Position numbers and translations under genes: made by a program
Shown: piece by piece, positions 1,628 to 56,306 of the stretch
Layout: every line of letters begins with the position of its first letter
Numbering within the stretch: position 1 is the stretch's first letter
NCBI GenBank assembly: GCA_025267735.1
Contig: CM046294.1
Location: forward strand, 8,528,001-8,592,000
Direction: 5' to 3'
Source of the DNA: Mactra quadrangularis
Lineage: Eukaryota; Mollusca; Bivalvia; Venerida; Mactridae
DNA length: 64,000 nucleotides
Notes under the pieces: model-generated
The model's input: the letters and a program-made list of their open reading frames with translations, nothing else
What the model was told of the DNA's origin: nothing
Databases searched by the model: none

Positions 1628-2440
1628 AAAAGAGCTCTGCTGGGCGGGGCATTATACGCTGTTCATGCTGTGTTCAGTCCCATATGAAGTACCAGTGACT
1701 TTGACCTATGACCCTGGGAACTCAAAGTAAACACATCCTTGACTGGAAGGCTATCCAAAGGAAAGATTTCATGAACCTAGGTATAGCTGTTGGCGAGTTA
1801 TCACCGGCACAAGTTTCCAATATAAACTTCCAGTGACCTTGACCTTTGACACCAGGGCCTCTGAACCAATAGTGCACATCCCAGACCCATGGGCTATCCA
1901 CACATAAAATTTAGTGAACCTGGGTAAAGCAGTTGTTGAGTTATTGATCCAACAAAGTTTTCTATATGATGTCCCAGTGACCATAATCATTGACCCCTGG
2001 GCCACAGATTCAATAGGGCACATACTTGACACAAGGACTATACACTAAATTTGGTAAACCTAAGTAAATCAGTTGTTGAGCTATTGTCTAGACAATGTTT
2101 TTCCATGTGAAGTCTCAGCAACATTGACCTTTGACCCCGGAACCTCAGAACCAAATGGGTACACCCTTTACACAAAGGCTATCCTCATATAAAATTTGGT
2201 GAACCTAAATGAATCTGTTGTCAAGTTATTGTCCAGACAAAATTTTCCAATATGAATCCCAGTGACCTTGACCCAGAGCTCCAGAGCACACCTTCTACCC
2301 AAGGGATATCCACACATAAAATTTGGGGAACCTAGATTCATCATTTGTTGAGTTATCATCAGGATAAGCATTAGTCCACAGACAGACAGACAGAAGGACA
2401 ATGTCATAAATAATATGTCCCGTAAACGGGATTTTAATAA
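1628..2440 (-). mobile_element. A-family tandem-repeat element, reverse orientation
   Basis: About five units of about 142 bp, each with a 'gtcaaaggtcaaggtcac'-like core read on the minus strand, lie between two characteristic ends. The 3' end (1628-1660) reads GCCCCGCCCAGC, then AGAG, then CTCTTTT. The 5' end near 2440 has a short CCCGTTT/AAACGGG hairpin followed by CTGTCTGTCTG runs. The same architecture occurs at 29779-31611 and 34698-35360. Short open frames inside are by-products of the repeat. Probably a non-autonomous element; see the finding on shared 3' ends. Confidence 0.75.
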
Positions 2441-7030: not shown

Positions 7031-10000
7031 ATAATGGGATATGGATATTTTCGGACGAATATGCGAACCGGCGTCTGCCGGCCGTAAATCGCCATCTTCC
7101 TTTTGAGTGATTTTCATGCAAGATGAGACATTGTTTGAGAATTGGTTGTGTTCAGGGGAGGTTGCCCGATCGCGTTCAGAGAAATATTAATCCCGGGATC
7201 TCTGTTCGGCGGATGTGGGTTCAGTGGTTGGTTGGTCTCATGCGTCACGATGATTGTTGTTGTGTCTGGTGCATTTCCGGTTGACGGCGGTCGACGCGCA
7301 TCCTTGCAGTGTCTATTATGGCACTGTAGAGGGAGTAGAGTTAGCTAAAGCTTCTCTGCTGCGTGACCGGCCGTGTGTAGAGGTGCCAGTGTAATGGGGT
7401 GCAGTGTGTGCAGGGCTCAGGGGCTCTGGATCAGCAAAGTGGTATTCGCTCTCTGGTTTAGCGGGACAGCTGTGGGTCTAAGTCTTGACTCAGGAGGTGC
7501 CAGCTTATGGCATCCAGCAGAGAGGTAGGTGGTTTTTGCTGTGTTTTGTCAGGAAGTGACATGGTGGCTAACTAGGTTTGTGGTTAGGCCACGGTGGAAG
7601 AACACCTGTGATCTGGCATAGGTGGGGCAGGACTGTTGCTGAAGGGAATGGAGTGTTTCTAGCAACAGTGGTTTGATGACCTTGACTTGAAGTGGCATTT
7701 GAGTTTCTACGAACCCCAGGGGCAGGGGAAAAGATGATTGAAAGACATCATCGGGGTTACTAATGCTGCAGCATTGGGCAGGTTGTGTGCATGAAATGGC
7801 AGGTACCTTGTCATTGGTTGGACAGGGGGGGATGCCTGTGGAGGTTTCATGTGGATGCACACCTGGATTTACTGCCATGTGAATGATGCCGGTATTGCAT
7901 TTGGCGGGGAAGGGATTTCTGGGGGTCCTGTGAGATGGTTGTTGACAACCTAGTGCCATTGGTGATATGCGGACCATAGCTATCAACCAGGGGTTGGTGC
8001 GGTAAAGTTGTCTTCGGTGTAACTGGTAGTAATTCAGGTGTCATGGATGGTCAAGGTGGTCATGGTCACTTTGTGCTGAGAAAGTGGAAATGGAACCCGT
8101 AGGGGTGGTGGTAGTACCTATGAGAACTTTTATTTGAGTGTTTTGGTGGCAAATGTAACATTCTGTTCTACAGATTTCACTAGATTTTTAAGTTATTTGT
8201 TGAAAATTTTAGAAATTTGAATATTTGAGTTAATTTTAGGACATTTTGGCCGGTTTCATTGTATTAATATATTAAAGCTAGCTTTGAATTTTGACATCCA
8301 GTCTAGTGTGAGTCATCATCTGTAGGACCATGGTATGGTGTGTGTTGTTTGCCATTGAAACATCAAAAGTCGCTTCAGGATGTGTTACAAACCTTGGGAA
8401 CTCATAGGCCCAGGAGACACATGACTGAAGTGGGTGTGTGCTGTCCAGCTTGATTGCTTGCGATAGGCACATTACCAGGCCGGAGAATTGAGAAGAGCAC
8501 TGGTCTGAGTGACGGGGTAGTTTTTTGGTCTCTGTTGTTTATTGGAGTCCTATTCTCTGCTTCGTCAAAGGACCAGCGTCAGTGATGGTGTTCTGCAAAT
8601 CATTTTGGTTTGGTCGCAGGATGGTTAGATTCCGGAGTCTGCCTTCTTGTTAATGCTTGTTGGATCCACTTGTTGTGTTTGCAAAATGATGTGCGGTTCA
8701 CTCATTGCAGGCCGGGTCATGTTTATTCATGATCCATGGAATTTTAGTGATTTTTCTAGATCCTGTTTTATCATTTAAAGCAGGGGGGTTGGGAAAGATC
8801 ATGTATAGGTAACTGTTGATCATCTAAGAATGTGGGATAGATATGGACGGGTGAGGGTTTAAGTTTTGGTAAGGGTTGGGCTGGGACAGGCTAATAACCA
8901 AAAGTCAGATTGACCAGGCAATGGTCATCTGAGGGAGTACCAGACTGGTTCACCCAGTGTTGAAGTCTCATGGCCTTATTAGATTTTCTAAATCTTAAGG
9001 ACATGAGATGGTTAAGTGATTTGTGGCTCAGGTCACAATGAATGTTGTACATCTCTTTTTGATCAACAGGGCTGTATTCACAGCACAGGGGCCTGTAGAT
9101 GGGGTTTGGTTCAGCCAAAGGTTATATTAAGTTTAATATATAGGGGTTGGTTCAGCCAAAGGGGTATCTTAAGTATAAGTTATCTACAGGGGCAGTAGGC
9201 AAGTAGAATTTTGGGCCGGTATTACTGGAAATTACTGTCTGCTAATGGCATGGCTAAATTCAAGGTAAAGGGGATTATGTCATTAGGAGCTACATGTTAA
9301 TGGGTATGTCTTGGATTGTTATAAAAAGACTAGCATTGGTTATTTAAATGTAGGTGTGGGGTATCCTCATTGAACAGTTTTAAAATGTGTTCATGCCAAT
9401 AGAATAATTGGGGGGAGAGGATTGGTAGGTACTTGGTAACTAAAGGACCTATGGGTATTGTCGGTCGCAGTGATAGTAAAGTCTGCGAGGTGACATTGAT
9501 TGAAACTATTGACCTAAGTATTGGGAATAGTTGTCGGGGGAGGTTATCGCAAGGTATAATTTTGGTTTAATTTGGTTGCGATGTTGGAAGGGGAGCTATG
9601 TGTTTAGCATAGCTAAGGTAATTACAAGTCACTAGGTGAACATTTTAGTGAACGGTAATGGTTCTTCCATGAAGTTCTGGATTATAGTGGTTGCTATTGT
9701 CATGTTTCAAAATCATGGCTATCCTGTCTGATATCAGTTGTTTATGATCAGACGGTAGAGCATCTGATTGTCAGATTCTGTGGTTCCCATGGAGGGAATG
9801 TTTAGATGTTGATTTTGATAGGTCAGTTAACGGGGAAGCTAGTTCAGCTGTGGTAAGCGTGCTTAACTGTGAGTGGTTTTATGTCAGAGGTTTTCTGGGT
9901 CTAGGTCCTGGTCCTGTATTTGGGAAGTGCATATTTGTTGATTCCCAGTGTCTATAGGTTTCAGGGGCCTAGTGTAAGCTTAAGCTCTTTTAAGCTGGTC

Positions 10001-10440
10001 AATGTGGTGTCATTGTAGGTCATTGATAGCTGTGAGGGGGACTATAGGAGAATAGATATTGGTCTATTAGTAGTTTATAGGGACTTCTGTGAAAGCTTGA
10101 CAGAAATAGCTAAGTCAAGATTTTAGTTTTCTGACAGATTGGGTCTGATCACTTGAGTAAAGCAAGTGACTGCCACTGTGGAGAAAATTAGTCAAATCAT
10201 GTTGATTGATTTGTGGTGTTGAAGACAGTAGGGTATACTTCTAGTGTTGGAAAGTATTGTCATTGTTGTCTGTCTGCTGAGTGGGTCTAATCTCAGGGAC
10301 TTCACTAGTGTGATTTGGCTTGTGATGGTTATAAGGGAAAAAATAAACAAGTCTGGTGTATGTTGCCTGACTAGGTCAGGGCTGTTCTTGTATGCCTGAC
10401 AAGGTCAGAGTTGTTTTTGGGTTTCTGAGGAGGTCAGGTA
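7031..10440 (+). other. Non-coding interior of the LARD-like element
   Basis: G/T-rich, C-poor plus strand with many GGT and TTGG runs. A 24-codon frame starts at 7116 near the usual gag position but ends at 7190. No zinc knuckle, protease, RT or integrase motif could be recognised in any frame. From about 10370 diffuse repeats of 'cctgacaaggtcag' lead into the minisatellite blocks. Confidence 0.7.
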
Positions 10441-10680
10441 GTTAGTGTTACTGACAAGGTCGGGGTGATTCTAGTGTTATTGACAAGGTCGGGGTGGTTC
10501 TAGTGTTATTGACAAGGTCGGGGTGATTCTAGTGTTATTGACAAGGTCGGGGTGGTTCTAGTGTTATTGACAAGGTCGGGGTGGTTCTAGTGTTATTGAC
10601 AAGGTCGGGGTGATTCTAGTGTTATTGACAAGGTCGGGGTGGTTCTAGTGTTATTGACAAGGTCGGGGTGGTTCTAGGGT
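10441..10680 (+). repeat. Minisatellite, 29-bp unit, about 8 copies
   Basis: The unit is TGTTATTGACAAGGTCGGGG followed by TGATTCTAG (or TGGTTCTAG). Eight near-identical copies can be counted, the GACAAGG core recurring every 29 bp. Diverged copies (CCTGACAAGGTCAG) flank the block on both sides, showing that the array grew from a pre-existing motif of the element. Confidence 0.95.
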
Positions 10681-10763
10681 GCCTGACAAGGTCAGAGAGG
10701 CTCTTGTGTGATTAACAAGGGTCAGGTTGATTCTAGTGTGCCGGTAAGGGCAGGTTGATTTTA

Positions 10764-11297
10764 GTGTGCCTGGTAGGGCAGGGTTGTTCTAGAGAGCCTG
10801 GTAGGGCAGGGTTGTTCTAGTGTGCCTGGTAGGGCAGGGTTGTTCTAATGTGCCTGGTAAGGTAGGGTTGTTCTAATGTGCCTGGTAAGGCAGGGTTGTT
10901 CTAGTGTGCCTGGTAGGGCAGGGTTGTTCTAGTGTGCCTGGTAGGGCAGGGTTGTTCTAGTGTGCCTGGTAGGGCAGGGTTGTTCTAGAGAGCCTGGTAG
11001 GGCAGGGTTGTTCTAGAGAGCCTGGTAGGGCAGGGTTGTTCTAGTGTGCCTGGTAGGGCAGGGTTGTTCTAATGTGCCTGGTAAGGTAGGGTTGTTCTAA
11101 TGTGCCTGGTAAGGCAGGGTTGTTCTAGTGTGCCTGGTAGGGCAGGGTTGTTCTAGTGTGCCTGGTAGGGCAGGGTTGTTCTAGTGTGCCTGGTAGGGCA
11201 GGGTTGTTCTAGAGAGCCTGGTAGGGCAGGGTTGTTCTAGAGAGCCTGGTAGGGCAGGGTTGTTCTAGTGTGCCTGGTAGGGCAGGGTTGTTCTAGT
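10764..11297 (+). repeat. Minisatellite, 28-bp unit, 19 copies with higher-order period
   Basis: The unit is TGTGCCTGGTAGGGCAGGGT followed by TGTTCTAG. Nineteen copies were counted. Variants (AGAG-start, AATG-start with AAGGTAG, AATG-start with AAGGCAG) follow a fixed order that repeats after eight units (224 bp), so the array expanded in blocks of eight. Confidence 0.95.
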
Positions 11298-11871
11298 ATG
11301 TCTGACAAGGTCAGGGTGGCTTTTGTGAGCCTGATTAGGTTGGAGAGGTCAGGATTCTCCTGTTATTGAAGATTTGCCTGTTAGTGGCGCTGTGTCTGAC
11401 TGGTAGTATGGTCAGAGTCCTCCTTTTATGGAAGGATTTCAATGCATGCTGTGTGGGTTGTTGAACAATTGGTAATAGAGTTGTTCCGTTGACTATGCTG
11501 TCTGGGTTTGAATCCCAGGGGTGGCAGCTGGATGTATAGATCTGGTGAATGGCTGGTATGAATTGATCATAACAAACTCCAGAGGTTTTTGTTAGTTAGT
11601 ACTGGTTAGAATTAAGTATGTCCAGGAAAACTGGGTGTTGCTTGGTGTATGGCCTGAAAGTTGCAACACTGTTAGGGAGACTGCATTGACCTGGGCTCGT
11701 GTTAGAGTGTCAATGTAAAACTAATTTAGGCAGAATTGGCTTAAATGGTTTCAGGTTTAGAGAAAGCATGGCAGAAACGGTCTGGGGGTAAGATAGCACT
11801 GGCTGGTTTCAAGTAGTAGTGATGGCTGGGGGTTAGCCAGTGGCCCACTTGTTTCTCCCAAGGCCTTATTT

Positions 11872-11885
11872 AAGGTGGGGAGAAG
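11872..11885 (+). other. Polypurine tract of the LARD-like element
   Basis: AAGGTGGGGAGAAG (one T in 14) lies immediately before the 3' LTR, where the plus-strand primer of an LTR retrotransposon is expected. Confidence 0.85.
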
Positions 11886-12116
11886 TGTAGTGATACCGGG
11901 ATTTGGGGCAAAATCCGGATCATAGACCCAACCGTTCGGTCGACTGCGCATGCGCACGAAGAAGAGTTCTCTTCCCGTTTCGTCTTGGAGCAACGGAGAC
12001 GCGTCCTGGAAAGTCGAGTGGAATCCGAGCCAGGGATTCGGTTGTCATTACTATCGGAGCACAGAGCCGACGATTATCGTGAGTACGCTGCTTTTGATAC
12101 CCCTTAAAACACAATA
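11886..12116 (+). repeat. 3' LTR of the LARD-like element
   Basis: 231 bp, same ends as the 5' LTR and about 98.7% identical to it. Its NRF-1-like palindrome is at 11945-11956. It is followed by the CCAA target duplication. Confidence 0.95.
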
Positions 12117-17486: not shown

Positions 17487-17642
17487 TGCGGCTATTTTTA
17501 TGTTTATGGGACTGTAGCATAAGGTGACAAAAATGCATTAATAACATTTGAGAGAAGAAATTTGTGATCTGTGTTGTAATCGTTTGTAACGACATATGCC
17601 GCTTTGAAGTTTAGTTAAAATGTGAATAAAAAAACTTACTTA

Positions 17643-17716
17643 TGGCCAGTGTGGGGGTCGAACCCACGACATTCGCGTTATTAGCACGACGCTCTGACCG
17701 ACTGAGCTAACCGGCC
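17643..17716 (-). tRNA. trnI-AAU: tRNA-Ile (AAT), copy 1
   Basis: A 74-nt cloverleaf on the minus strand. The acceptor stem starts GGCCGGT, the A box is TAGCTCAGTCGG, the anticodon loop CTAATAA gives AAT, the B box is GGTTCGACCC, and the discriminator is A. A T-run downstream on its strand serves as Pol III terminator. No intron. Confidence 0.97.
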
Positions 17717-17846
17717 ATCACAATGTCGTAAGTTGGCTTTATCAATAGTTTATCTTCTATTTATAATTCAGTGATGTCCAGGGAATATTGCATCAGACAA
17801 CTTTATTTTGATTTATATTATTTTACAAAGTGTGTCACCAATGTAA

Positions 17847-17918
17847 AGCAGAGTGGCGCAGTGGAAGCGTGCTGGGCCCATAACCCAGAGGTCCGAGGAT
17901 CGAAACCTCGCTCTGCTA
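17847..17918 (+). tRNA. trni-CAU: Initiator tRNA-Met (CAT), copy 1
   Basis: 72 nt, starting AGCAGAG and ending CTCTGCTA. Initiator hallmarks are the A1:U72-type acceptor pair, three G:C pairs beside the anticodon loop (GGG CCCATAA CCC) and AUCGAAA in the T-loop. A TTTTTT terminator follows directly. Confidence 0.97.
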
Positions 17919-18082
17919 AGATTTTTTATTATTGTTTTTAAAACCACTGTATTTGGATATATTTATGATTAGCAGAAATGAAAACTATCTTACACTTTTG
18001 GAGACATAAAATTACTATATGCATAAGAGACACGATAAACAGTGATGACCATTTTGCTTTCTAAATTTAAGATATCGACGCG

Positions 18083-18134
18083 ATATGACCTTTTTGTGTT
18101 GGTGCGCCGTAAAACCCAAACAAACAAACAAATT
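18083..18134 (+). repeat. Orphan SINE S1 3' tail
   Basis: GCGATATGACC...GTGTTGG...CGCCGTAAAACCC followed by ACAAACAAACAAA matches only the last 50 bp of SINE S1. Either a very short 5'-truncated SINE copy or the 3' end of the LINE that mobilises S1. Confidence 0.6.
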
Positions 18135-18309
18135 TAAGATATATATAGTGTTTTTATTTTCAAAGTGGGTTCATTTATAAGAGCACATTTTATTCTTATT
18201 ATCTAAACGTTGATTTTTTTACCTCATAAGATTTAAGAGCTGCTAATATATATCGGAGAAAGTTTTTATTACAGTTCTATTAAAAATGTAAATAAACAAA
18301 ACAAAATCA

Positions 18310-18383
18310 TGGCCAGTGTGGGGGTCGAACCCACGACATTCGCGTTATTAGCACGACGCTCTAACCGACTGAGCTAACCGGCC
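18310..18383 (-). tRNA. trnI-AAU: tRNA-Ile (AAT), copy 2
   Basis: Identical to copy 1 except for one base in the D arm (GGTTAGAGC instead of GGTCAGAGC), which restores the usual animal sequence. Anticodon AAT. A TTTT stretch follows on its strand. Confidence 0.97.
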
Positions 18384-18526
18384 ATCACAATGTCGTATTT
18401 TGGCTTTATCAATATTTCATGTTCTATCTATAATTTCGTGATAGACACTAAGTGCCCTGAGGACATTGCATCAGACAACTTAATTTTAAATATATTTATA
18501 TAAAACAGGAATATTTAAAGCTGTAA

Positions 18527-18598
18527 AGCAGAGTGGCGCAGTGGAAGCGTGCTGGGCCCATAACCCAGAGGTCCGAGGATCGAAACCTCGCTCTGCTA
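18527..18598 (+). tRNA. trni-CAU: Initiator tRNA-Met (CAT), copy 2
   Basis: All 72 bases identical to copy 1, including the initiator-specific anticodon stem and T-loop. A long T-run terminator follows. Arranged divergently from tRNA-Ile copy 2, as in the first unit. Confidence 0.97.
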
Positions 18599-29389: not shown

Positions 29390-29697
29390 GCCACCCCGCT
29401 AGCTCAGTTGGTAGCACGAAAGTCTACTGATCGAGGTAGATACCATTTGATTCTCAGGCGGGGCATACTTTCGTGGAGCTTAGTCATGAAATTATTTCTA
29501 CAGCCATTCTCCCTCCTACCAATGATTTTAATTATGTAGGGCAGTTGTCAGTCACTGACAAAAGTATGTGCTTAGTAATTAGGTGACAGTTGAATCCAGA
29601 GATTTAGCCTCTTCTGGAAGAGTGAGTAGGTTGACTGACAACCATTATATGACCTATACAATGTGTTGCTACCGCGTAAGACCAAACTAACAAATAA
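29390..29697 (+). mobile_element. SINE S1, complete copy
   Basis: The best reference copy in the window. The tRNA-like head has A box GCTAGCTCAGTTGG and a degraded B box. A body of about 230 bp includes TTGTCAGTCACTGAC and GGTTGACTGACA. The 3' end has GTGTTGCTACCGCGTAAGACC and a short ACTAACAAATAAAC tail. In an intron of G2. Confidence 0.9.
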
Positions 29698-29778
29698 ACT
29701 TCTGGCTACATGAATATAGACAATAATAGTACTGCATACATTTTTTATTTGATAAATTGTAAATCTAAAAATGACTAG

Positions 29779-31611
29779 TTATACGCCCGTTTTGAAAAAA
29801 CGGTCGTATTATGTTATGCTGTTGTCCGTCTGTCAGTCTGTCAGTCTGTCCGGTCTGTCCGTGGACAATTGCTTGTCCGGATGATAACTCAAGAAGGGAT
29901 GCACCTAGGTTTCTCAAATTTTATGTGTGGATAGCCCTTGGGTGGAGGAGGTTCCCTATTGATTTTGAGACCCCAGGGTCAAAGGTCAATGTCACTGGGA
30001 CTTAAAATAGGTCAAACTTGTCCGGACAATAACTGAACCACCAATGTACCTAAGGTCACCAAATTTTATGTAAGAGTAGGCCATGTGTCAAAGATGTTAC
30101 CTATTGGTTTTGGGGCCCCTGGGTCAAAGGTCAAGGTCACAGTGGCATCATATGGGAAAAAAACTTGTCATGACAATAACTGAACAACCAATCTACCAAG
30201 GTTCACCAAATTTGTTGTGAGAGTAGCCCATGTGTCAAGGATGTTCCCAATTGGTTTTGGGGCCCCTGGGTCAAAGGTCAAGGTCACAGGGACATCATAT
30301 TGAAAAAACTTGTCCGGACGATAACTCAACAACGACTGTACCTAGGTTCACCAAATTTTATGTGAAGGTAGCCCATGCGTCAAGGATGTGCCCTATAGGT
30401 TTTTGGGCCCCAGGTTCAAAGGTCAAGGTCACAGTGGCATCATTTTGAAAAACCTTGTCCGGACAATAACTGAACCACCAATGTACCTAGGTTCACCAAA
30501 TGTTATGTGAGAGTAGCCCATGTGTCAAGGATATACCCTATTGATTTTGGAACCCCTGGGTCAAAGGTCAAGGTCACAGGGGCATCTTATTAAAAAACAT
30601 TGTCCGGGTAATAACTCAACAACGACTGTACCTAGGTTCACCAAATTTCATTTGAGGGTAGCCCATGTGTCAAGGATGTGCCTTATCAGTTTTGGGGAAA
30701 CAGGGTCAAGTTTAAACGTTCAACCAGAAGATATCAAATTAACAAGCAGTGAATTCAAATGTTCAATCCAAATGTTAATAAAGTCAAAATGGCAAACACT
30801 GGAAATAATGCTATATTTAATAAGTAACATGAATTTAGTTCACCAAATTTTATGTGAGGGTAGCCTATGTGTCAAGGATGTTCCCTATTGGTTTTGGGTC
30901 AAAACTAGGTCAAAGGTCAAGGTCACAGAGGCATCATATGGAAAAACCTTGTCCGGACAATAACTAAACAATGATTGTACCTAGGTTAACCAAATATTTA
31001 TGTGGATCAGCCTATTTGTCAGGATGTAATGTGTTGATAGCTCTTTTGTAGAGGATGTTCCCTTTTGATTTGGAGACCCAAGGGCCAAAAGTCAAAGTCA
31101 CTGGGACTTAATTTATATTGAAACATTTTTCGGACAATAACTCGATAATGATTGTACCTAGGTTTACCAAATTTTATTTAAGGGTAGCCTAAATGTCTAG
31201 CATAATTATGCCCCTTTGGTTTTAGGCCCCTTGGTTAAAGGTCAAAGTCACAAGGAAATCATGAGGAAAACCTTGTCCAACAACCAACTTTGATCTAAGA
31301 TCTAAGATCACCTAATTTTATGTATCAATACTCTTTTACTCTTTGGGTCAAGGGTGAGAACTTTTGGTTCTGAGGCCCCAGGGTCAAGGTCACTGGAAGT
31401 TTGTATGGGGAAAACTTTGTGCCGGTGATAACTCAACCATGGCTGTACCTAGGTTCTCAAAATCTTTACTTTGGATAGCCCTCCAGTTAAGAGTGGGACC
31501 TATTCTGAGATCCTGGGGTCATTGGTCAAGGTCACAGAGACTTCATATGAGATAGAACACAGCATGGACTGCACACGGGCGTATAATGCCCCGCCCAGCG
31601 GAGCTCTTGTT
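29779..31611 (+). mobile_element. A-family tandem-repeat element, complete
   Basis: Begins TTATACGCCC, which forms a hairpin with the following AAAACGGTCGTAT. A (CTGT)-rich leader follows, then about eleven units of about 145 bp, each with CTTGTCCGGACAATAACTC, CCTAGGTTCACCAAATTTTA and GGTCAAAGGTCAAGGTCAC. It ends with GGGCGTATAA (31577-31586, inverse of the start), a CCGC-CCA-GCGG hairpin and CTCTTGTT (31604-31611). An unrelated segment of about 110 bp interrupts the array near 30725-30840. Long open frames inside are repeat artefacts. Lies in the second intron of G2. Confidence 0.85.
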
Positions 31612-31840
31612 GCTAATATGACTATGATACTGTGATAATTTTTTAATTGGTTTCCTAATCCTTGTTTGTGATTCTTTTACCATTGAATAAACTGTCTTGT
31701 CATAATTCAGTTTCATCTTTTAAAACTATTGACAAGTTCATACAGTGTAATTATTTTAGGTTTCTAAATTGTTTAACTTGCAGATGTACAGCTGAATTGT
31801 AAGGCAATCACTATCATCTTTTTATGTGTTGTTTCAACAG

Positions 31841-31918
31841 ATGTGCTTATTTATCAACCATGTACAGAGTGTGAAATGTGCTGGCTGATAAATTGCTGAA
31901 CAAGGATGGATCAGAAAG
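31841..31918 (+). CDS. Candidate third exon, gene G2, with stop
   Basis: The acceptor TGTTGTTTCAACAG is strong. The frame carried from exon 2 gives NVLIYQPCTECEMCWLINC and a TGA at 31897-31899. The exon ends at a donor (AGAAAG then GTATCA). The stop is only 19 nt before that junction, so the transcript would escape the usual 50-nt decay rule. The C-rich end (C-x2-C-x2-C) is notable, but no family is recognised. Confidence 0.4.
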
Positions 31919-32296
31919 GTATCACGTTTCGTTGAGCTTAATTTTATGAACTATTTACATGATTTACATCCCTGCTAGTCCCACAAGATATCCTGTTTAA
32001 TTTGGATCCAATATACTATACATGTATATGAATTAGTCTGGCATATGTAGAATTACTCTTGCTCACTCACATTGGGGCCTCCAGATACTCTGAATGTCCA
32101 TGCAAGGCTTATAATAATTTTTCAGACATTTAATTACTATTTATTAAAACTAATTTAACTAATCACGAGTATATAAATGGGTAACACGCACATTCTCAGT
32201 GCATCTTTTAGACATGGAAACTATCAGTTGATGTTATATATAATGAAGCATGTATTATTGCATATTGGCTTATATCTATTTTGTTATATCTTTCAG

Positions 32297-32924
32297 CCTC
32301 CAGATATTGTACATAAGAAGTGGAAGGTTGACATCACATAGTACAGTTTAAAAATACAGTGTAGCAAAATATCAGATATGAACATCTATTGGTTGATCAT
32401 ATTGTTGTTCTCATAAAATACATTTGAACTTATATGTTTTAAACATATGACTACAGATTGATAGTAACATCACCTCCATAGATATAGCTTACATTATAAA
32501 CCATGAAATATTGTAAAACAACTACATGTACATGGAAAATGTAACTTCATAGAAGTCATGGAAATTCTGGAAGATCTATTTGTTTTATATTTCCATCATG
32601 TCAAATTTTTTTATGTAGTAATCATTTTCATGTGCTTATTTGTTGGACATTGGTATGACAAGTCTACGTATAGTGCTCCTTTTGACTATGTATCGGGAAT
32701 TAACATTTATTATTAAACAGCAGAAGCTGTAGATTGTTTTAATGATGAGCCTCATTTTGTGTTAGTAGCTCGACTTTTCTAAGAAAATTAGGGCCTATGC
32801 TATCACTTTTGTGTTCGCATTGGTGTGGCTTGTGAAGGGTTAAGAAAGTATTATATACATTTAATAGTATCCATGGTATTTATGTATAAGTTGGTATTTT
32901 TACATGAAAGAACATAACTCTGAC
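32297..32924 (+). other. Possible 3'-terminal exon of gene G2
   Basis: A strong acceptor (TTATATCTTTCAG) opens at 32297, and no coding frame is needed because the stop lies in the previous exon. The end is undefined; a CAAAATAAATGG poly(A)-like signal occurs near 33047. Confidence 0.3.
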
Positions 32925-33000
32925 TATGTTTTTATTGTATGTTATGTGTCGGAGGCCAGGGCCTATACCTCAATGAACCAATTTGATTTGATTTGATTTG
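32925..33000 (+). repeat. Probable LINE 3' end with (TTTGA)n tail
   Basis: GGAGGCCAGGGCCTATACC, then TCAATGAACCAA, then (TTTGA)3-4. The form (unique 3' UTR plus a short simple repeat) is that of CR1/L2-like LINE ends. No coding part remains. Confidence 0.5.
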
Positions 33001-33199
33001 AATGGAGTATCTATGGATGTGTTGCCCTTTTATACTTAAAACTGCAAAATAAATGGTAAAATATTTTAAAGAAGATATAGAGATCATCTTCAATAATAAT
33101 CAAATTCAATGTATTTGTATTTGACCTGACATTTGCATACTTTTTGTCCATACTGTATCTACAGGAAAATGAAGGAACATAACACTGGATGAATAATTT

Positions 33200-33310
33200 T
33201 TAGCTCGACTTTACAAAGTAAATGGCTAGCTCTCCTACTCGCCCTAGCCTCAGCGTCCGCGTCCATATTTCTGATTAAAGTTTTGTGCAGTAACATATTT
33301 TTACAATAAC
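33200..33310 (+). repeat. B-family element, 5' end fragment
   Basis: TAGCTCGACTTTACAAAGTA, then TCCTACTCGCC..., then AGCGTCCGCGTCC is a second 5' end of the B family lying directly before the full copy. A third, weaker one (TAGCTCGACTTTTCTAAG) is at about 32766. Confidence 0.5.
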
Positions 33311-33315
33311 TTTCT

Positions 33316-34253
33316 GGCTTGACTATTCAAAGAATAGTGGGGCTATCCTACTCAGCTGCGTGTCGGCGTAACACTTCTTGGTTAATTTTTTAGGTGCAAC
33401 ATTTTTGTTTCTTTTATATCTTTGCAAGTACTGGAGGGATTCACTTAAACTTTATTTGTGTTCACGGGGTTACCATTGGAGTTTAAATACCAAGTTACAT
33501 AACTCTTGGATGAATTTGGACTGAATTATGGCACTTTTATACTTATAAAATTTCTTGGTTAAGTTTTTAGGTGCAACATTTTTTCGTGGCAACTACTGAA
33601 AGGATTTGCTTGAAACTTTACACATGTCTACGGGATTACTATTGGAGGTCAACTACCAAGGTGCATAACTCTAGATTAACTTATGACTGGATTATGGCCC
33701 TTTTATACTTATAAAATTTCTTGGTTAAGTTTTTAGGTGCAACATTTTATCTTTGAAACTACTGAAGGGATTCACTTGAAACTTTACACATGTCTACGGG
33801 ATAACTATTGGAGGTCAACTACCAAGGTGCATAACTCTAGATTAACTTTTGACTGGATTATGGCCCTTTTATACTTATAAAATTTCTTGGTTAAGTTTTT
33901 GGATGCAACATTTTATCTTTGAAACTACTGAAGGGATTCACATGAAACTTCACACATGTCTATAGGGGTACTTATTGCCGTCAAATATCAAGTTGCATAA
34001 CTCTAGCAAGAATTTTGACTGGATAATGACCCTCTAATACTTAGATTTTTTTTGTTAAACTTTTTGGTGCAACATTTTATTTTTGAACCAACTGAAGGGA
34101 TTCTCTTGAAACTTCACTCATGTCAATGGGGTTATAGTAATGAAGGTCAAATACTGAGTTGCATAACTCCAGCATGAGTTTTGATTGGTTGTTGCTGTCG
34201 TTTACACAAATACCCAGAATAGTTGAGCCCGCTGTCAGTGGACTGCTCTTGTT
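33316..34253 (+). mobile_element. B-family tandem-repeat element, complete
   Basis: Begins with the hairpin GACTATTC-AAA-GAATAGT. It continues with five units of about 170 bp, each containing TTCTTGGTTAAGTTTTTAGG, TGCAACATTTT and CATAACTCTAG. It ends GCTGTC-AGTG-GACTGC (stem 5 of 6) followed by CTCTTGTT at 34246-34253. Units share no obvious similarity with A units, yet the overall plan is the same. A further degenerate unit-like stretch continues to about 34420. Confidence 0.8.
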
Positions 34254-34697
34254 TATTTCTGAAGGTATCAACTAAAAAAATGTTTGTTTTCTGCAACTGT
34301 TTTATTTCTCTAGGTATTGACTTTAAACTTTTAATATATGTTCGTTATTATCAACCACATCTCATGTGACAAGGTTCATAACTCCAAATACATTTTTTTC
34401 CAAAATTATCTCCCATGAACATTAAAATTTCTTTAAACACATATTTATTTTGTTTACTTTAGATTTGTTAAAGTTATATTTTCATATTTTAAAATATGTA
34501 TGTTCCTTATCATCAACCAATAAATATTTTTGGCATTATGTCGTATATATATATAAACTTTTATTAAGGTAAAATAATGTCAAAATGAAATATTTTTAAT
34601 ACTGATCAAGATGTTTGCCTAAGAGTTATTATTCTTATTTACTGATGCTGCATCTATTCTAGTACATATATAAAGGAATACCATTCTTGAAGAATTA

Positions 34698-35360
34698 TTA
34701 TACGCCCGTTTTGAAAAAACAGACATACTATTTTATGATGTTGTCCGTCTTTGCGTCCGTAGACAATTGCTTGTCCGGATGATTATTCAAGAAGAGATGT
34801 ACCTAGGTTCCTTAAATTTTATGTGTGGATAACCCTTGGGTAGGGGGTTCCCATTGATTTTGAAACCCAAAAGTCAAATGTCAAGGTCACTGGGACTTGA
34901 AATATGAAAACCTTGTCCGGATGATAACTCAACAACAACTGTACCTAGGCTCACCAAATTTCATGTGATAATAGCCCATGTGTCAAGAAAGTGCCCTATT
35001 GGTTTTTGGGCCACTGGGTCAAAGGTCACAGGGGCCATCATTTGGAAAAACCTTGTCCAGAGAATAACTCAACAACCACTTTATATGATTCACCAAATTT
35101 TATGAGTTGATACTCTTTGGGTCAAGGGTGTGAGCTTTTGGTTCTGAGGCCCTGGGTCAAGGTCACTGGAAGTTCATATGGAAAAACTTTGTGCTGGTGA
35201 TAACTCGACCATGGCTGTACCTAGATTCTCAAAATCTTTGCTTTGGGTAGCCTTCCAGTTAAGAATGTAACCTAGTCTGAGGTCCTGTGGTCATTGGTCA
35301 AGGTCACGGGACTTCATATGAGATAGAACACAGCATGGACTGCACACTTGCATATCATCA
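34698..35360 (+). mobile_element. A-family tandem-repeat element, 3' end lost
   Basis: Starts TTATACGCCCGTTTTG like the 29779 copy and has about four units. It ends just after TGCACACTTGCATATCAT, where the other copy continues to its hairpin and CTCTTGTT. Confidence 0.8.
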
Positions 35361-35740: not shown

Positions 35741-36046
35741 AGGCCTAGATGGCTAGGTAAGTCAGTAGCACACAAGTCTACTGATCGAGGGGTCGTTGGT
35801 TTGTTTCCAGGTCAGGACATTCTTTCATATAGCTTGGTCATGAATTAATGTATACGGCCATTCTCCCTCCTACCACTGATTCTAAATTATGTAGGGCTGA
35901 AGTCAGTCACTAACGAAAGTGTTCCCTTAGCAGTTGGTTAACAGCTAAATCCAGAGATATGCTCTTTCAAGGAACAGTGCGTAGCTGAACTGACCGCAGT
36001 GATATAACCCATACAATGTGTTGCTACGGGATTCAACCAAACACAA
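35741..36046 (+). mobile_element. SINE S1
   Basis: Head (AGGCCTAGATGGCTAGG..., AAGTCTACTGATCGAGG), body and 3' GTTGCTACGGGATTCAACC are all present and moderately diverged. ACAAAC tail reduced to CAAACACAA. Confidence 0.8.
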
Positions 36047-37435
36047 TTATATTCTGTCAACGACTGGCAATCTTATGAATTTCAAGTTGAAGAATGAGAT
36101 CTTTCTAAACACATTAGCATCTGCTAGGGATTACATTGGCTAAAAGACATAACCAATAATTGGTGTCATTGACAACCATCTGATTCTGTTCAGTGACCAA
36201 CTTGGGTAACAACAAATATTATAACAGTGTCAGTTTCATGAAATAAGATTTGACAAACATTAAAAAGAACAAGGTTTAAATCATTACTGGTTAGAACACA
36301 GTCTTTAAAATAATAGGAAGCAGCAAATATGCACTGCACTGAGACAATAATTTCCTATTTAATTTCTGACTTAAATATTGCTAGTTTAGTTTACTCTAGT
36401 GTACTATCCCAGGGTAGGAAGTACAGGTATAACAAAGATGAATATAAATTCAAACAATTTATTTTGGGAAAATGAGAAAAAAATAATGTACATGTATATG
36501 TATCAACAAGTTGGATAACCAACTAACAAAACAATTGTTGACAACACAAACCCATCATTGGTTTATCAATCCAATAACTTGATGTAAGCATATCTTAAAC
36601 ATATTATGTTTGACTAAATAAATTGAAAACAAAATAATTCATAAAAATGTTTCAAAATGAAATCTTATGAAAGTAAACCCATCCACAGAAAATATTATTG
36701 ACAGCCATATATATGTTTTCGATGAAATGCTTGTTGAGGTTATAAACTGACAATTTTGTACAATTTCTACATGGATTTAATATTGACTAATTATTTGTCA
36801 AGAGTTTCAACTTCTACGCATCAACTTATATGTTAATCATGTAAAAAAATATCAGTACCCTCCTGATGTTTTTAGACAATTTAAATTTAGAAAAAATAAT
36901 ATGACTTCTTGTCTTCATGTAACTGGTGTAGGATACATGTATGTATCCAAACAATCTAAGAAGAAAACAATATTTCTTCATCGCAATTACATTATATAAT
37001 TACACAACACCTTCATTATAAGTAAATTCATGCATCAAATAGATAAATGTTGTGAACAAATCTTCAAATTTGAATTTTCAGATTTCAATACCTAAATCAT
37101 TAGAACCAGAATCACATTTTTCACATTTTAAGCCAACTATATTCATTCCCTTGGCAAAACTTACACATTGAACAAGTTAAAAGAAAATACATATATCATC
37201 ATGCTTATCAAAATATAAAACCTAAAAAAAGCATTTATACAATCATATGTATAGCATACAGGGTGAAAAAGTTTGCCAAGATGATAAAGAAATAGGACTT
37301 TAATCACAAAAAGTATACATACACATATTTATAGCCTGGGTGGATATATACATCTCTATTTTTTTAGTTTATTTAAGAGTAGAATATAACAGTTTTTATG
37401 TAACTTGAAATAATTTTATAGTACTGGGAATTAAG
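36047..37435. other. AT-rich DNA, no feature recognised
   Basis: Very AT-rich with poly-A runs. No exon, repeat partner or structured element could be supported. Confidence 0.4.
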
Positions 37436-40475: not shown

Positions 40476-40774
40476 TTTGGTAGCAAGCAAGTTTCTTTTC
40501 GAGGGGTCGTGGGTTCGATTCCCGGGCTAAGTATACTTTAGTGGAGCCTTGTCATGAAATTATTTCAACAGCCATTCTCCCTCCTACTAATGATTTTTAA
40601 TTATGTAAGGCAGTTGTCAGTCACTGACAAAAGTATGTGCCTAGTAGTCGGTTAACAGCTAAATCCAGAGACTTAGCCTTTCCAGAAGGGGTGAAGAGGT
40701 TGACTGACCTCCGTTTTATGTCCTGTACCATGTGTTGCAACAGCGTTTTAAACTAACCATACAAACAAATAAAC
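40476..40774 (+). mobile_element. SINE S1
   Basis: From TTGGTAGCAAGCAAG through GTGGGTTCGATTCCCGG (intact B box) to the CAAACAAATAAAC tail; the first bases of the head are lost. In the first intron of G3. Confidence 0.85.
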
Positions 40775-40799
40775 TTAACTTAATACCAACATCACAAAT

Positions 40800-44566: not shown

Positions 44567-44639
44567 GTCCCCGTAGCGCAGTGGATAGCGCGCTGGACTT
44601 CTAATCCAGAGGTCGTGGGTTCGAATCCCACCGGGGATG
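44567..44639 (+). tRNA. trnR-UCU: tRNA-Arg (TCT)
   Basis: 73-nt cloverleaf with A box TAGCGCAGTGG, anticodon stem CTGGA/TCCAG around loop CTTCTAA (TCT) and B box GGTTCGAATCC. The 5' GTCCCCG pairs with 3' CGGGGAT through one G:U pair, and the discriminator is G. No intron. A TTTT terminator lies about 10 bp downstream. Confidence 0.95.
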
Positions 44640-44758
44640 CATTAAATTTTATTTAACATATATACAATTAAATATATTTAATTAATTAGATATTATTTTT
44701 TACCTAATGTGGTATTAAAATGATTTTTTCATTGGAGATTTGATTTGAACTTAATTTG

Positions 44759-49329: not shown

Positions 49330-49990
49330 CTAGGACCATCAAAATCGATGGTCCTCATAGGCGGATCCAGGATTTTTAATTAAAGGAGCGGAGATTTTAG
49401 TTAGAGGGAGCGTAAAGTGAACAAGCAGAGTAGGGTTTCAAGGCCGGGACGTAAGGGCCCCGAATGGTCCAGGACAAAGCCCTGACCAGGGGTCTAGGTG
49501 ACCGGCGACACCCGAAATTCCTGAGTCAGTTTGGTTATTTCTAAGGGATTTAGGCACATTTCGAGAGCCTCAACTATCCTTTCTCAGGGTATACAATATA
49601 AAGCATCTAGATATATGCTAGATATAATTTTCTAACAGCCGTTGGATGAATGTTATATTCTTACAAAAATGAGAAGGAATTGTTTTAAATTGTAAAAATT
49701 AGTTTATTGTATTTCTGTACTACCTGTCTCGTAACTTATTGCAAAAAATGACATATATATATATATATATATATATTTATAAATATCATATTCTTGATTG
49801 AAAAAGAAACCTTTGCTTGGGCAATTTTAGGGAAGCGTACGCCGGGTCCGCCCCCCCCCCCTTGGATCCGCCTATGGTCCTGATAGCGGAATGGTCTTAA
49901 TATAAAGATTTTTATCGTCAAATTAAGCATTTGGGAATTACAAATTGTCAAAAGTCGCTTTATTTTGTAATAGCCAATATGGTCTTTATA
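49330..49990 (+). repeat. Dispersed repeat R6, copy 2, split by a hAT MITE
   Basis: GGACCATCAAAATCGATGGTC before 49358 and ATAGCGGAATGGTCTTA...TTTTGTAATAGCCAATATGG after 49874 together match R6 at 42872-43020. Confidence 0.65.
49358..49874. mobile_element. hAT-type MITE
   Basis: 517 bp with inverted ends TAGGCGGATCC(A) and (T)GGATCCGCCTA. The flanks TGGTCCTCA (49349-49357) and TGGTCCTGA (49875-49883) are a near-perfect target duplication. A C11-12 run and an (AT)n run lie inside. The uninterrupted R6 partner supports the boundaries. The 176-codon minus-strand frame crossing its right end is spurious. Confidence 0.8.
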
Positions 49991-53704: not shown

Positions 53705-54738
53705 GACTAAAACACGCAATGGAGATTTTTGGTCGAAATGAAGCAGACATTGACGAAGTGGAGATTGAATTGTTCAGATAAATATTCTTTACGACCAACC
53801 TAACTACATCACTAAGTTGGGTGTTTTTTTCCATCAATTGACCGTGCCTATTATTATATTAAGTTTTAAATTCTTTTCAAAAATGTATTATTCTAGATGC
53901 ATCAGGGTGGTATATGGAGCAGGCGTCTAATGATCGTCTGTAAATTTGTTTACAAAGACATCGCTGACAGGGGATTAACTTTTACGATTGACATCAACGG
54001 ATCCCTTAAAAATAGGGAGCTGATAATGTACCCAGTCTCTGTCGGCGGGCATCCTTGTATTTTCATTCATCAGCCTGTTACACGTTTTTATGAATGAACC
54101 AAATAACAATGGAGATAAAGGCAATCACAAAGATGGAGTCATCGTGTTATCGACATTATCTTGTTGAAGTTCATTCATACTATTTTACGCTTATTTGACC
54201 TTGCTCTAATGTTACAAATTAAATCAACTTATTATGAGATAATGCAAAGACGGATATTCAGTTAAAAGGGGACATATTTAGTCGTCCCCTAATCTGGCGA
54301 CTTTTTGGGGCCCTCAACACGATATGTTAGCCGGATGAGGACATAATGTTTTAATGTAAGTCAATCCTTAACCACTTTAAAGGCGGTGATAATGACTCAA
54401 AGGTTATCCCTCTCTTTTTACTTCATTTCATAATGAGTTATAAGAGTATTAAGTAAGCAGACTACATAATATTATTGTTAAATTCTATTTAACTCTCAGC
54501 GGCGCAAAATTCCCTCCGCTGAGTTAGATACTCGATACATGTAATCCATAGTGAGTGCAGATATACTGTAGCCTGAGTATCCCGGTGTATTATACAATGT
54601 CACAAGTTGCAAATAGGCAATAAAAAAAATACTATACCCAAATGAGTTGGACCCAAAGTTATTACAGCAATATCAAGGGTTCCCCCAAACAAACAAACAA
54701 GAAATGTCTTTTAAAAAGACAAACGGCGTCGATTTAAA
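53705..54738. other. No feature recognised
   Basis: Contains short open frames only (one of 66 codons at 53897) and a CCCCCAAACAAACAAACAAG stretch near 54683 that resembles a SINE S1 tail. Confidence 0.35.
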
Positions 54739-54739
54739 A

Positions 54740-55048
54740 ACAAGAGGGCCCAAAGGGCCCTGGGTGCTCACCTGAAGAAAAGGTCAAAGGTCACAGAAGA
54801 GCCATTTACATAGGACCACTAATGTTAAAACCTATTTTTTGACGTGGTGATGGATTGCCAGATTCCGTTAGTATTTGCTCATACAAGTTGTGACCACGCA
54901 TCATCACTTCATCAACAACATTTGCAGACCAGTTTCGCAGACTTGGCACATGATTGCCTACCGTAAACAATATGACAGCCAATGCAATTGCCGTACACTG
55001 ATAACCACAGGGAATTGTCAAGTTACCTCCCTTTGATTTTTCCAACAT
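54740..55048 (-). mobile_element. C-family element, 3' part with hairpin and CTCTTGT end
   Basis: On the minus strand the element ends TTCAGGTGAGCACCCAG, then GGGCCC-TTT-GGGCCC, then TCTTGTT (the last C of the stem is shared). The perfect GGGCCC hairpin is at 54746-54760. Upstream on the same strand lies a coding fragment described next. Only the 3' part is recognised; the 5' end is unknown. Confidence 0.6.
54806..55048 (-). CDS. Fragment resembling a transposon-borne cysteine peptidase
   Basis: 80 codons. The stretch CGYQCTAIALAVILF followed by W...VVDEVMMRGHNLYEQI fits the pattern G-x-QC-x-A-x-AL ... W ... (L/V)D-x-(I/V) ... G-x-x-LY. I associate that pattern with the N-terminal catalytic-cysteine part of papain/OTU-like peptidase domains seen in large eukaryotic DNA transposons. 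The catalytic His/Asp part is absent: the frame stops at 54806, about 45 bp before the element's 3' terminal region. Function is inferred from a remembered pattern; treat as a broken fragment. Confidence 0.4.
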   Translation of the reverse strand: MLEKSKGGNLTIPCGYQCTAIALAVILFTVGNHVPSLRNWSANVVDEVMMRGHNLYEQILTESGNPSPRQKIGFNISGPM

Positions 55049-55789
55049 ACCTTTAATATACTTATATACAAGGGGTACAACTGCGTTTACTAGACCGATT
55101 CATCTAGATTTCTTATTTTGTGGCTCACAAAAAATACTGATACCCTAGTAGCACTTTAACCGCACGATTAAATTGATTAAACATAACTCTTCGAGCTATG
55201 AATATTAAATGTTTCATAAGGCAGATCATTAAAACACTCGCCAACAAAAAACAATTCTTTTTGACAAATAATTTTTAGATATTCAAAATATGAATTTCAA
55301 GACCTTTCTAGTGATATAAAATGCAAAATTGTTTGATGAAAAATGACTTAGTAATTGCAATTTTAAAATTACTGTGTTTTCATTGTATTTACTCGCTATC
55401 ATTTCTTGCCAACCAGCGAACGGTTACCTGTAGTCTTTATCAGCTCATTGTTACTATTTATAGACATCATAACAATAACAATGAACTGGTCTATGTGTGG
55501 AGCTGTGACTCTCAAAGTGTAAACCCCGGAAACTGGACGTAGTGAGGCTAATTTAATAATTATTGGGTAATATGTCAGACTTTTTACTAGAAACCGGTTC
55601 ACATCTGGAGACGTAATTCATTTTACCCATAAAATATTGTGTTTGACACGTAACTTTTTATTGTTACAAAATAAAAAAACACTTTGGAAAGCAATAGAAG
55701 TCTACCAAAAAAAAAATAATCTACGAACGAAGCAAAATTTCGTAAAACACTGCATTACAATAGTGTGGCCTTTATTTTTTCGCGCGTGT
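55049..55789. other. AT-rich DNA, no feature recognised
   Basis: Open frames at 55321 and 55637 are AT-rich and unsupported. Confidence 0.35.
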
Positions 55790-56057: not shown

Positions 56058-56306
56058 GTTTGTTTGTTTGTTTGTTGGATTTAACGCCGTAGCAACACAT
56101 TTTATAGGTCATATAACGGCGGTCAGTCAACCTACTCACTCCTCCTGGAAAGGCTAAATCTCTGGATTTAGCTGTTAACAAACTACTGAGCGCCTACTTT
56201 CGTCAGTGACTGACAACTGCCCTACAGTATGCCCCGCCCGGGAATCGAACCCACGACCCCTCGATCAGTAGACTTGCGTGCTACCAACTGAGCTTGACGG
56301 GTGGCT
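56058..56306 (-). mobile_element. SINE S1, reverse, internally deleted
   Basis: It has a perfect GTTTGTTTGTTTGTTGG tail and a good head (B box GGGTTCGATTCCCGGGC). About 80 bp of the body (the CATTCTCCCTCCTACC region) is missing between 56225 and 56228. Confidence 0.85.

Follow-up and report, generated by a model that had tools for sequence, protein, structure and literature searches.

The published plan of HINEs, which are non-autonomous Helentrons, as given in the text of PMC7492417, comprises subterminal inverted repeats (subTIRs) at both ends, a further inverted repeat on the 5' side, a GTCY microsatellite with a tandem core, and a palindrome close to the 3' end; the same text lists ten autonomous elements from oyster, none tied to the HINEs of that genome (Cg_HINEs). 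Here we describe three repeat families, A, B and C, in a stretch of 64,000 nucleotides from the bivalve Mactra quadrangularis (assembly GCA_025267735.1, contig CM046294.1, positions 8,528,001 to 8,592,000 of the forward strand; hereafter the window). All three close with a hairpin followed by the exact octamer CTCTTGTT, at 31604-31611 (+) in family A (element A1), where the boundary is set by 30 of 30 genomic loci and by the empty sites of two other copies, and at 34246-34253 (+) in family B and 54746-54739 (-) in family C, as read from the window sequence. We consider it probable that A and B have HINE anatomy, that C carries a Helentron-type 3' end, and that all three are copied by Helentron rolling-circle enzymes.

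By itself, TCTTGTT is unremarkable in the window, with 22 sites against 17.4 expected. A GC-rich hairpin adjoins three of the 22, those of A, B and C, whereas 150 first-order Markov windows scored by the identical rule gave a mean of 0.03 and a maximum of 1. An initial annotation, made from the letters of the window, had placed three families ending in hairpin and octamer, and all three lie where it put them. The hairpins it wrote out are likewise present, with the extent of that in A corrected to GCCCCGC-CCA-GCGGAGC (31588..31604, +), seven pairs with one mismatch; the palindrome of B (34231-34246, +) has six pairs with one mismatch, and that of C, AGGGCCC-TTT-GGGCCCT (54761-54745, -), has seven pairs, all perfect.

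The assembly that contains the window (979 Mb, 447 contigs) holds 1,888 exact A 3' ends (946 forward, 942 reverse), against 0 for a reversed-pattern control. In 30 of 30 A loci fetched, conservation ceases at the first base after CTCTTGTT and no base is conserved beyond; the octamer itself was required by the search pattern. The 5' end is visible in 16 of the 20 A copies fetched with about 4.8 kb and absent from four, and the 16 copies with both ends are 1,202-3,801 bp long. The four bases before the 5' TATACG are T in 16, 16, 15 and 15 of these 16 copies, with no preference further out; A1 has TAGT before its 5' end. With the 5' rule relaxed, 18 copies were compared over their last 400 bp; pairwise identity among them runs from 70 to 100%, with a median of 93%, and because identities reach 100%, some A copies are recent.

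For each of 16 A elements (A1 and 15 of the fetched copies), the two flanks were joined and compared against the window and the available loci. Junction-spanning matches were obtained for two of the 16, at two places for locus L037 and four for locus L041, giving six paralogous empty sites. Three empty sites of L041 have five Ts, the number that precedes TATACG in the filled site, where the flanking sequence resumes right after CTCTTGTT; the fourth has ten extra bases at the junction. In the filled site of L037, TATACG is preceded by four Ts and the octamer is followed by one; the empty sites have five Ts and three Ts. Target duplication is absent at both insertions, which are into a T-run. 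Within such a run, neither the initial T of TATACG nor the final two Ts of the octamer can be credited with certainty to host or element, and the secure end of the A element is CTCTTG. The identical T ambiguity is reported for mite HINEs in the text of PMC4067079. By empty-site comparison, the A tail is the true end of a mobile element. The initial annotation had proposed aligning genomic loci at the hairpin and octamer and looking for empty sites, and both comparisons place the end of family A at the octamer.

These sites also bear on the way in which the families spread. Tail sharing among families is typical of short interspersed elements (SINEs), and SINE-like repeats are present nearby, as would suit cut-and-paste movement or target-primed reverse transcription, with the 3' tail shared as a SINE shares one with a long interspersed element (LINE). 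Family A, however, has two matching ends with subterminal repeats, its empty sites are free of target duplication, and neither a poly-A nor a simple-repeat tail follows its octamer. The hallmarks of SINEs and LINEs (target-site duplication and a simple 3' tail) are thus missing from A, and we regard this mode of spread as very improbable.

The complete family A element, A1 (29779..31611, +), contains every part of the HINE plan. These are, from the 5' end, the subTIR TTATACGCCCGT (29779..29790, +), a 12/12 inverse of 31575-31586; an inverted repeat that faces the subTIR (29800..29813, +); a TGTCCGTC microsatellite of GTCY type, called by a repeat finder (29823..29862, +); a tandem core of 5.7 copies of 145 bp (29872..30697, +), with more diverged copies onward to about 31550; the 3' subTIR ACGGGCGTATAA (31575..31586, +), the exact inverse of TTATACGCCCGT, which precedes the 3' palindrome; and the octamer. 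The 12/12 match was equalled by 13 of 100,000 random sequence pairs. This inverted TTATACGCCCGT/ACGGGCGTATAA pair is the diagnostic feature of A1, and the initial annotation overlooked it.

The family B element (33316..34253, +) has its parts in the same order as A, with different sequences: the 5' subTIR GGCTTGACTATTC, a 5' inverted repeat (33332-33339, +), a 166-bp tandem core (33417-34188, +), a 3' subTIR (34217-34229, +; 11/13 match) and the palindrome. For B, the repeat finder gave no clear microsatellite. The 5' hairpin and tandem core that had been ascribed to both families are there, and the 5' hairpins are stabler than shuffles (fold z -4.81 for A and -3.05 for B). Two more B-type 5' ends occur in the window. 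The second, at 33199..33313 (+), is not accompanied there by its own 3' end and shares 80% identity with the 5' terminus of a complete B-type HINE in locus L086; the third, at 32766..32802 (+), is weaker.

Family C is represented by a 3' end (54739..54775, -), in which CAGGTGAGC is followed by the palindrome and CTCTTGTT, and from this end we infer its Helentron membership. The bodies of the families had been described as lacking evident similarity, which does not hold for A and C: the two have GGTCAAAGGTCA ... CACAG in common, in opposite orientation relative to the element, and the block shared with the A monomers is found in C as AGGTCAAAGGTCA (54781..54793, +). Just past the C end, an AT-rich second hairpin, TGTCTTTTTAAAAGACA, is followed by TTTCTTGTT (54690-54725, -).

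Canonical Helitrons have a 5' TC, a 3' CTRR and an A|T target. None of these is found here: A inserts into a T-run and reads TATACG ... CTCTTG(TT), and B and C have the same octamer. We therefore place A, B and C with Helentron-type elements and not with canonical Helitrons. The reading of the initial annotation, a non-autonomous Helitron or Helentron, stands in its Helentron form for A and B (subTIRs and 5' inverted repeat, with the microsatellite in A as well) and falls in its canonical Helitron form. The predicted action of Helentron enzymes is a cut at the hairpin with its CTCTTG tail and the joining of the element ends into T-runs; the hairpin may act as a stop signal, and A, B and C may share the enzymes. 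Subterminal inverted repeats differ from family to family, so that recognition would act at two levels: an inverted-repeat part specific to the family, and the terminal CTCTTG beside T that all three have in common. Were a single tail to serve one kind of Helentron enzyme, with subTIRs and interiors free to vary, this would account for the spread of unrelated satellite-carrying HINE families in one genome, even though in the oyster none could be linked to an autonomous element (PMC7492417). An architecture scan for further HINEs gave nothing convincing; it accepted nothing but perfect stems and exact subTIRs, and so missed A1 and B themselves.

Several observations weigh against a common Helentron assignment. 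Folded as DNA, the 3' regions have z values of 0.23 (A), -1.32 (B) and -1.78 (C) relative to shuffles, which gives the 3' hairpins of A and B no stability beyond that of shuffled sequence. The 11/13 subTIR match of B, considered by itself, is equalled by 1% of random pairs. The full plan is absent from two further, decayed family A copies, and neither has the paired subTIRs: A2 (34698..35358, +) is without 3' hairpin and octamer, and A3 (1630..2433, -), which the initial annotation did not list, is diverged, ends in CTCTTTT and has a subTIR pairing at chance level (0.17 of random pairs equal it). The initial annotation had drawn its stretch to 35360, where A2 ends. No autonomous element ending like A, B or C was found among the Rep loci examined, and the sole candidate for an autonomous end, in locus L085, reads AGT-TCTAGTT after its palindrome, at a candidate boundary. 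A B-type end in L086 was considered as a Helentron's own terminus and ruled out, as set out below. For C, finally, the window shows no 5' end, and a single copy was seen, of the 3' end only. This last point would suit a C that is no Helentron end, its GC hairpin standing before CTCTTGTT by chance or in another kind of repeat. We consider that improbable, given the 0.03 such hairpins expected per window, the exact octamer, and the A-monomer block 35 bp off.

Helentron-type genes are present in the genome. Helitron_like_N (PF14214) occurs at 36 places, against 0 of 14 control genomes, and the longest open Rep frame has 2,266 amino acids. The 30 Rep loci fetched form eight groups at 95.6-99.9% identity plus three single loci. 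DUF6570 accompanies Helitron_like_N in six of the six loci sent to Pfam (L055, L063, L071, L078, L069 and L080), and a PIF1 helicase passes its cut-off in L078 and falls short in L069. An Exo_endo_phos domain (E 9.2e-10) lies in L085 on the strand of the L055 gene and in frame with it (4,944 bases, or 1,648 codons, from the locus start), with 1.4 kb between them unseen; a C-terminal endonuclease is, in the text of PMC9741609, a criterion for the Helentron label. About 0.5 kb past the L085 stop codon is the candidate end GCCACTGGTGGC-AGT-TCTAGTT; the candidate sequence in L085 is GCCACTGGTGGCAGTTCTAGTT. The frame of L078 closes soon after the helicase part, in L086, and no endonuclease is found there. 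An autonomous Rep/helicase partner with the same end had been put forward as something to look for; Rep genes are there, and the matching end was not found. The window has 26 frames that reach 90 codons; 20 of these were compared with Pfam, and none matched a Rep or a helicase.

L086 contains a perfect B-type end, GCTGTC-TCCTCT-GACAGC plus TCTTGTT, 1.5 kb beyond the end of the Rep/helicase frame. This end belongs to a second complete B-type HINE (L086 557-1771; G000:C1:2779056-2780270), about 0.3 kb downstream of the Rep/helicase gene, and we read it as nested because a B-type 5' end intervenes and because L088, a second copy of the gene family, is similar 130 bp past the octamer (99.1% over 228 bp that run across it). 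The nested HINE is carried in at least two copies of the L078 gene family; a third copy, L087, has the same array and stops short of the end.

Near the C end, a 97-codon frame (54806-55099, -) has two database relatives, 99% and 87% identical, and may resemble a fragment of a Helentron deubiquitinase. The frame had no Pfam match and nothing significant in the Helentron loci; neither it nor its alignment matched a solved structure, apart from one chance-level match for P0002; no longer homologue was found, and none in viral contigs or phages. Its structure model is poor (mean pLDDT 53). We therefore set aside C as the remnant of an autonomous element, and the frame stays a lead. Weak matches to Herpes_teg_N, a viral-tegument-like deubiquitinase, occur at residues 60-94 of L078 and L080, below the curated cut-off. 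They would be in line with the deubiquitinase domains that the text of PMC9741609 describes in Helentrons, those of molluscs included.

Bacterial and archaeal contigs searched with a 20-base A-monomer block gave two records, L001 and L002. The latter, PIVJ01000170.1, is labelled a Bacteroidetes metagenome-assembled genome and looks to us like animal contamination. It contains a complete HINE, with subTIRs matching 11/11, an inverted repeat, GTCC repeats and a core of about 150 bp, and with the 3' palindrome GTACC-TTTCA-GGTAC followed by CTCTAGT. A tail of CTCTWGT form thus extends beyond this genome. The A, B and C ends had no match in viral contigs, and the C end none in the genome contigs of a public collection.

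The near-identical tail of this HINE from another organism, the subTIRs that differ among A, B and C, and the at least eight groups and three single loci among the 30 Rep loci compared would all be expected if separate Helentron lineages move A, B and C, CTCTTG(TT) being an old or convergent Helentron end. Nothing speaks directly against such lineages; the ends of transposon DNA usually drift along with their enzyme, however, and the octamer is exact in all three families. Separate lineages are a sizeable though minority possibility, and copying of all three by the same kind of Helentron enzyme remains our preferred reading.

The most unexpected part of the findings is a conserved, nuclear-receptor-like block in the tandem cores, found at 29976-30919, 35016, 2137 and 54781 of the window and at 1911-2677 of L002. 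Allowing at most one mismatch, AGGTCAAAGGTCA has eight matches in the window, in A1 (five), A2, A3 and C, against 0.05 expected from 20 simulations. Among 16 A monomers, conservation of the block is 0.88 against 0.79 overall, a value as high in 204 of 20,000 random column sets, and other stretches of the monomer, for example TAGGTTCACCAAAT, are equally conserved. Among six L002 monomers the values are 0.99 and 0.78, and 0 of 20,000 random column sets reached as high. Presence of the block in L002 is by construction, because L002 was found through it, which leaves its repetition and conservation unaffected; outside the block, the A and L002 monomers have nothing significant in common. Across the 16 A elements, many of them close copies whose counts are therefore non-independent, TCAAGGTCA tops the 145 monomer 9-mers (211 against a median of 79), and the 13-mer GGTCAAAGGTCAA ranks 20th (101 against 57). 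Full-length copies have 10-17 TCAAGGTCA sites in 15 of 16 cases. Single occurrences of the block in L001, L003 and L004 were taken for chance, the repeat finder showing no block-bearing array in L003 and L004; in viral contigs the block was not found.

The block GGTCAAAGGTCAAGGTCAC comprises three AGGTCA-type half sites, and AGGTCA repeats with one spacer, as well as TCAAGGTCA, are nuclear-receptor sites. The tandem cores might thus be dispersed arrays of nuclear-receptor binding sites, a rather doubtful suggestion; the block would also be compatible with common ancestry or with a function in transposition. If it were true, the 1,888 A ends would seed tens of thousands of hormone-receptor sites, the tandem core would have a reason to persist, and satellite-carrying transposons would be tied to hormone-receptor control. 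ISX of Drosophila is reportedly a Helitron. It provides a precedent for a mobile element that disperses regulatory sites (PMC4384637).

Other features of the window lie apart from the three families. A dispersed repeat, 74-85% identical among its copies (29600-29700, 56062-56161, 107-204, 40669-40776 and 35971-36056), adjoins a tRNA-like stretch at about 29390-29465 for which ARAGORN and Rfam make no call; we read this repeat as a SINE. Two tRNA-Ile/tRNA-Met pairs in the same arrangement, together with a tRNA-Arg, occupy 17642-18598 and 44567-44640, and the pairs are probably a duplicated unit. GC skew is strong (0.34-0.43) in 8001-12000, around an array of 20.7 copies of 28 bp (10725-11304). 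Two GGATCCGCCTAT inverted repeats separated by about 0.5 kb, together with a perfect hairpin of 8 bp (49369-49873, -), are perhaps another DNA transposon.

Among described systems, canonical Helitrons, as presented in the text of PMC4067079, have a 3' palindrome near the end and no target duplication, as here, and differ in the 5' TC, 3' CTRR and A|T target, all absent from A, B and C; the L002 tail, read as CTCTAG|T, would fit the canonical CTRR. A tail common to unrelated families found no mention in the running text of the papers examined, and we do not claim that it is unreported; a literature search for CTCTTGTT with Helitron returned only an unrelated match. The HINE/DINE-1 elements and Helentrons of mites and flies described in PMC4067079 resemble the present elements in their subTIRs, 3' palindrome, T-rich target and ambiguous Ts, but in that text they have autonomous partners (Rep, helicase and endonuclease) with the same ends, whereas none was found here. 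The bivalve elements Pearl, DTC84 and MgE, compared by their description in PMC7492417, have arrays of about 160-bp repeats in a similar architecture. A and B are likened, again by description, to Cg_HINE of Crassostrea gigas, for which the text of PMC7492417 leaves a common terminal sequence across families unmentioned. Like A1 and, apart from the microsatellite, B, Cg_HINE has a 5' subTIR, an inverted repeat, a GTCY-type microsatellite, a 140-180-bp core, a 3' subTIR and a palindrome; as in family A, its target is T-rich and shows no duplication, and, as here, several sequence-unrelated families occur in one genome.

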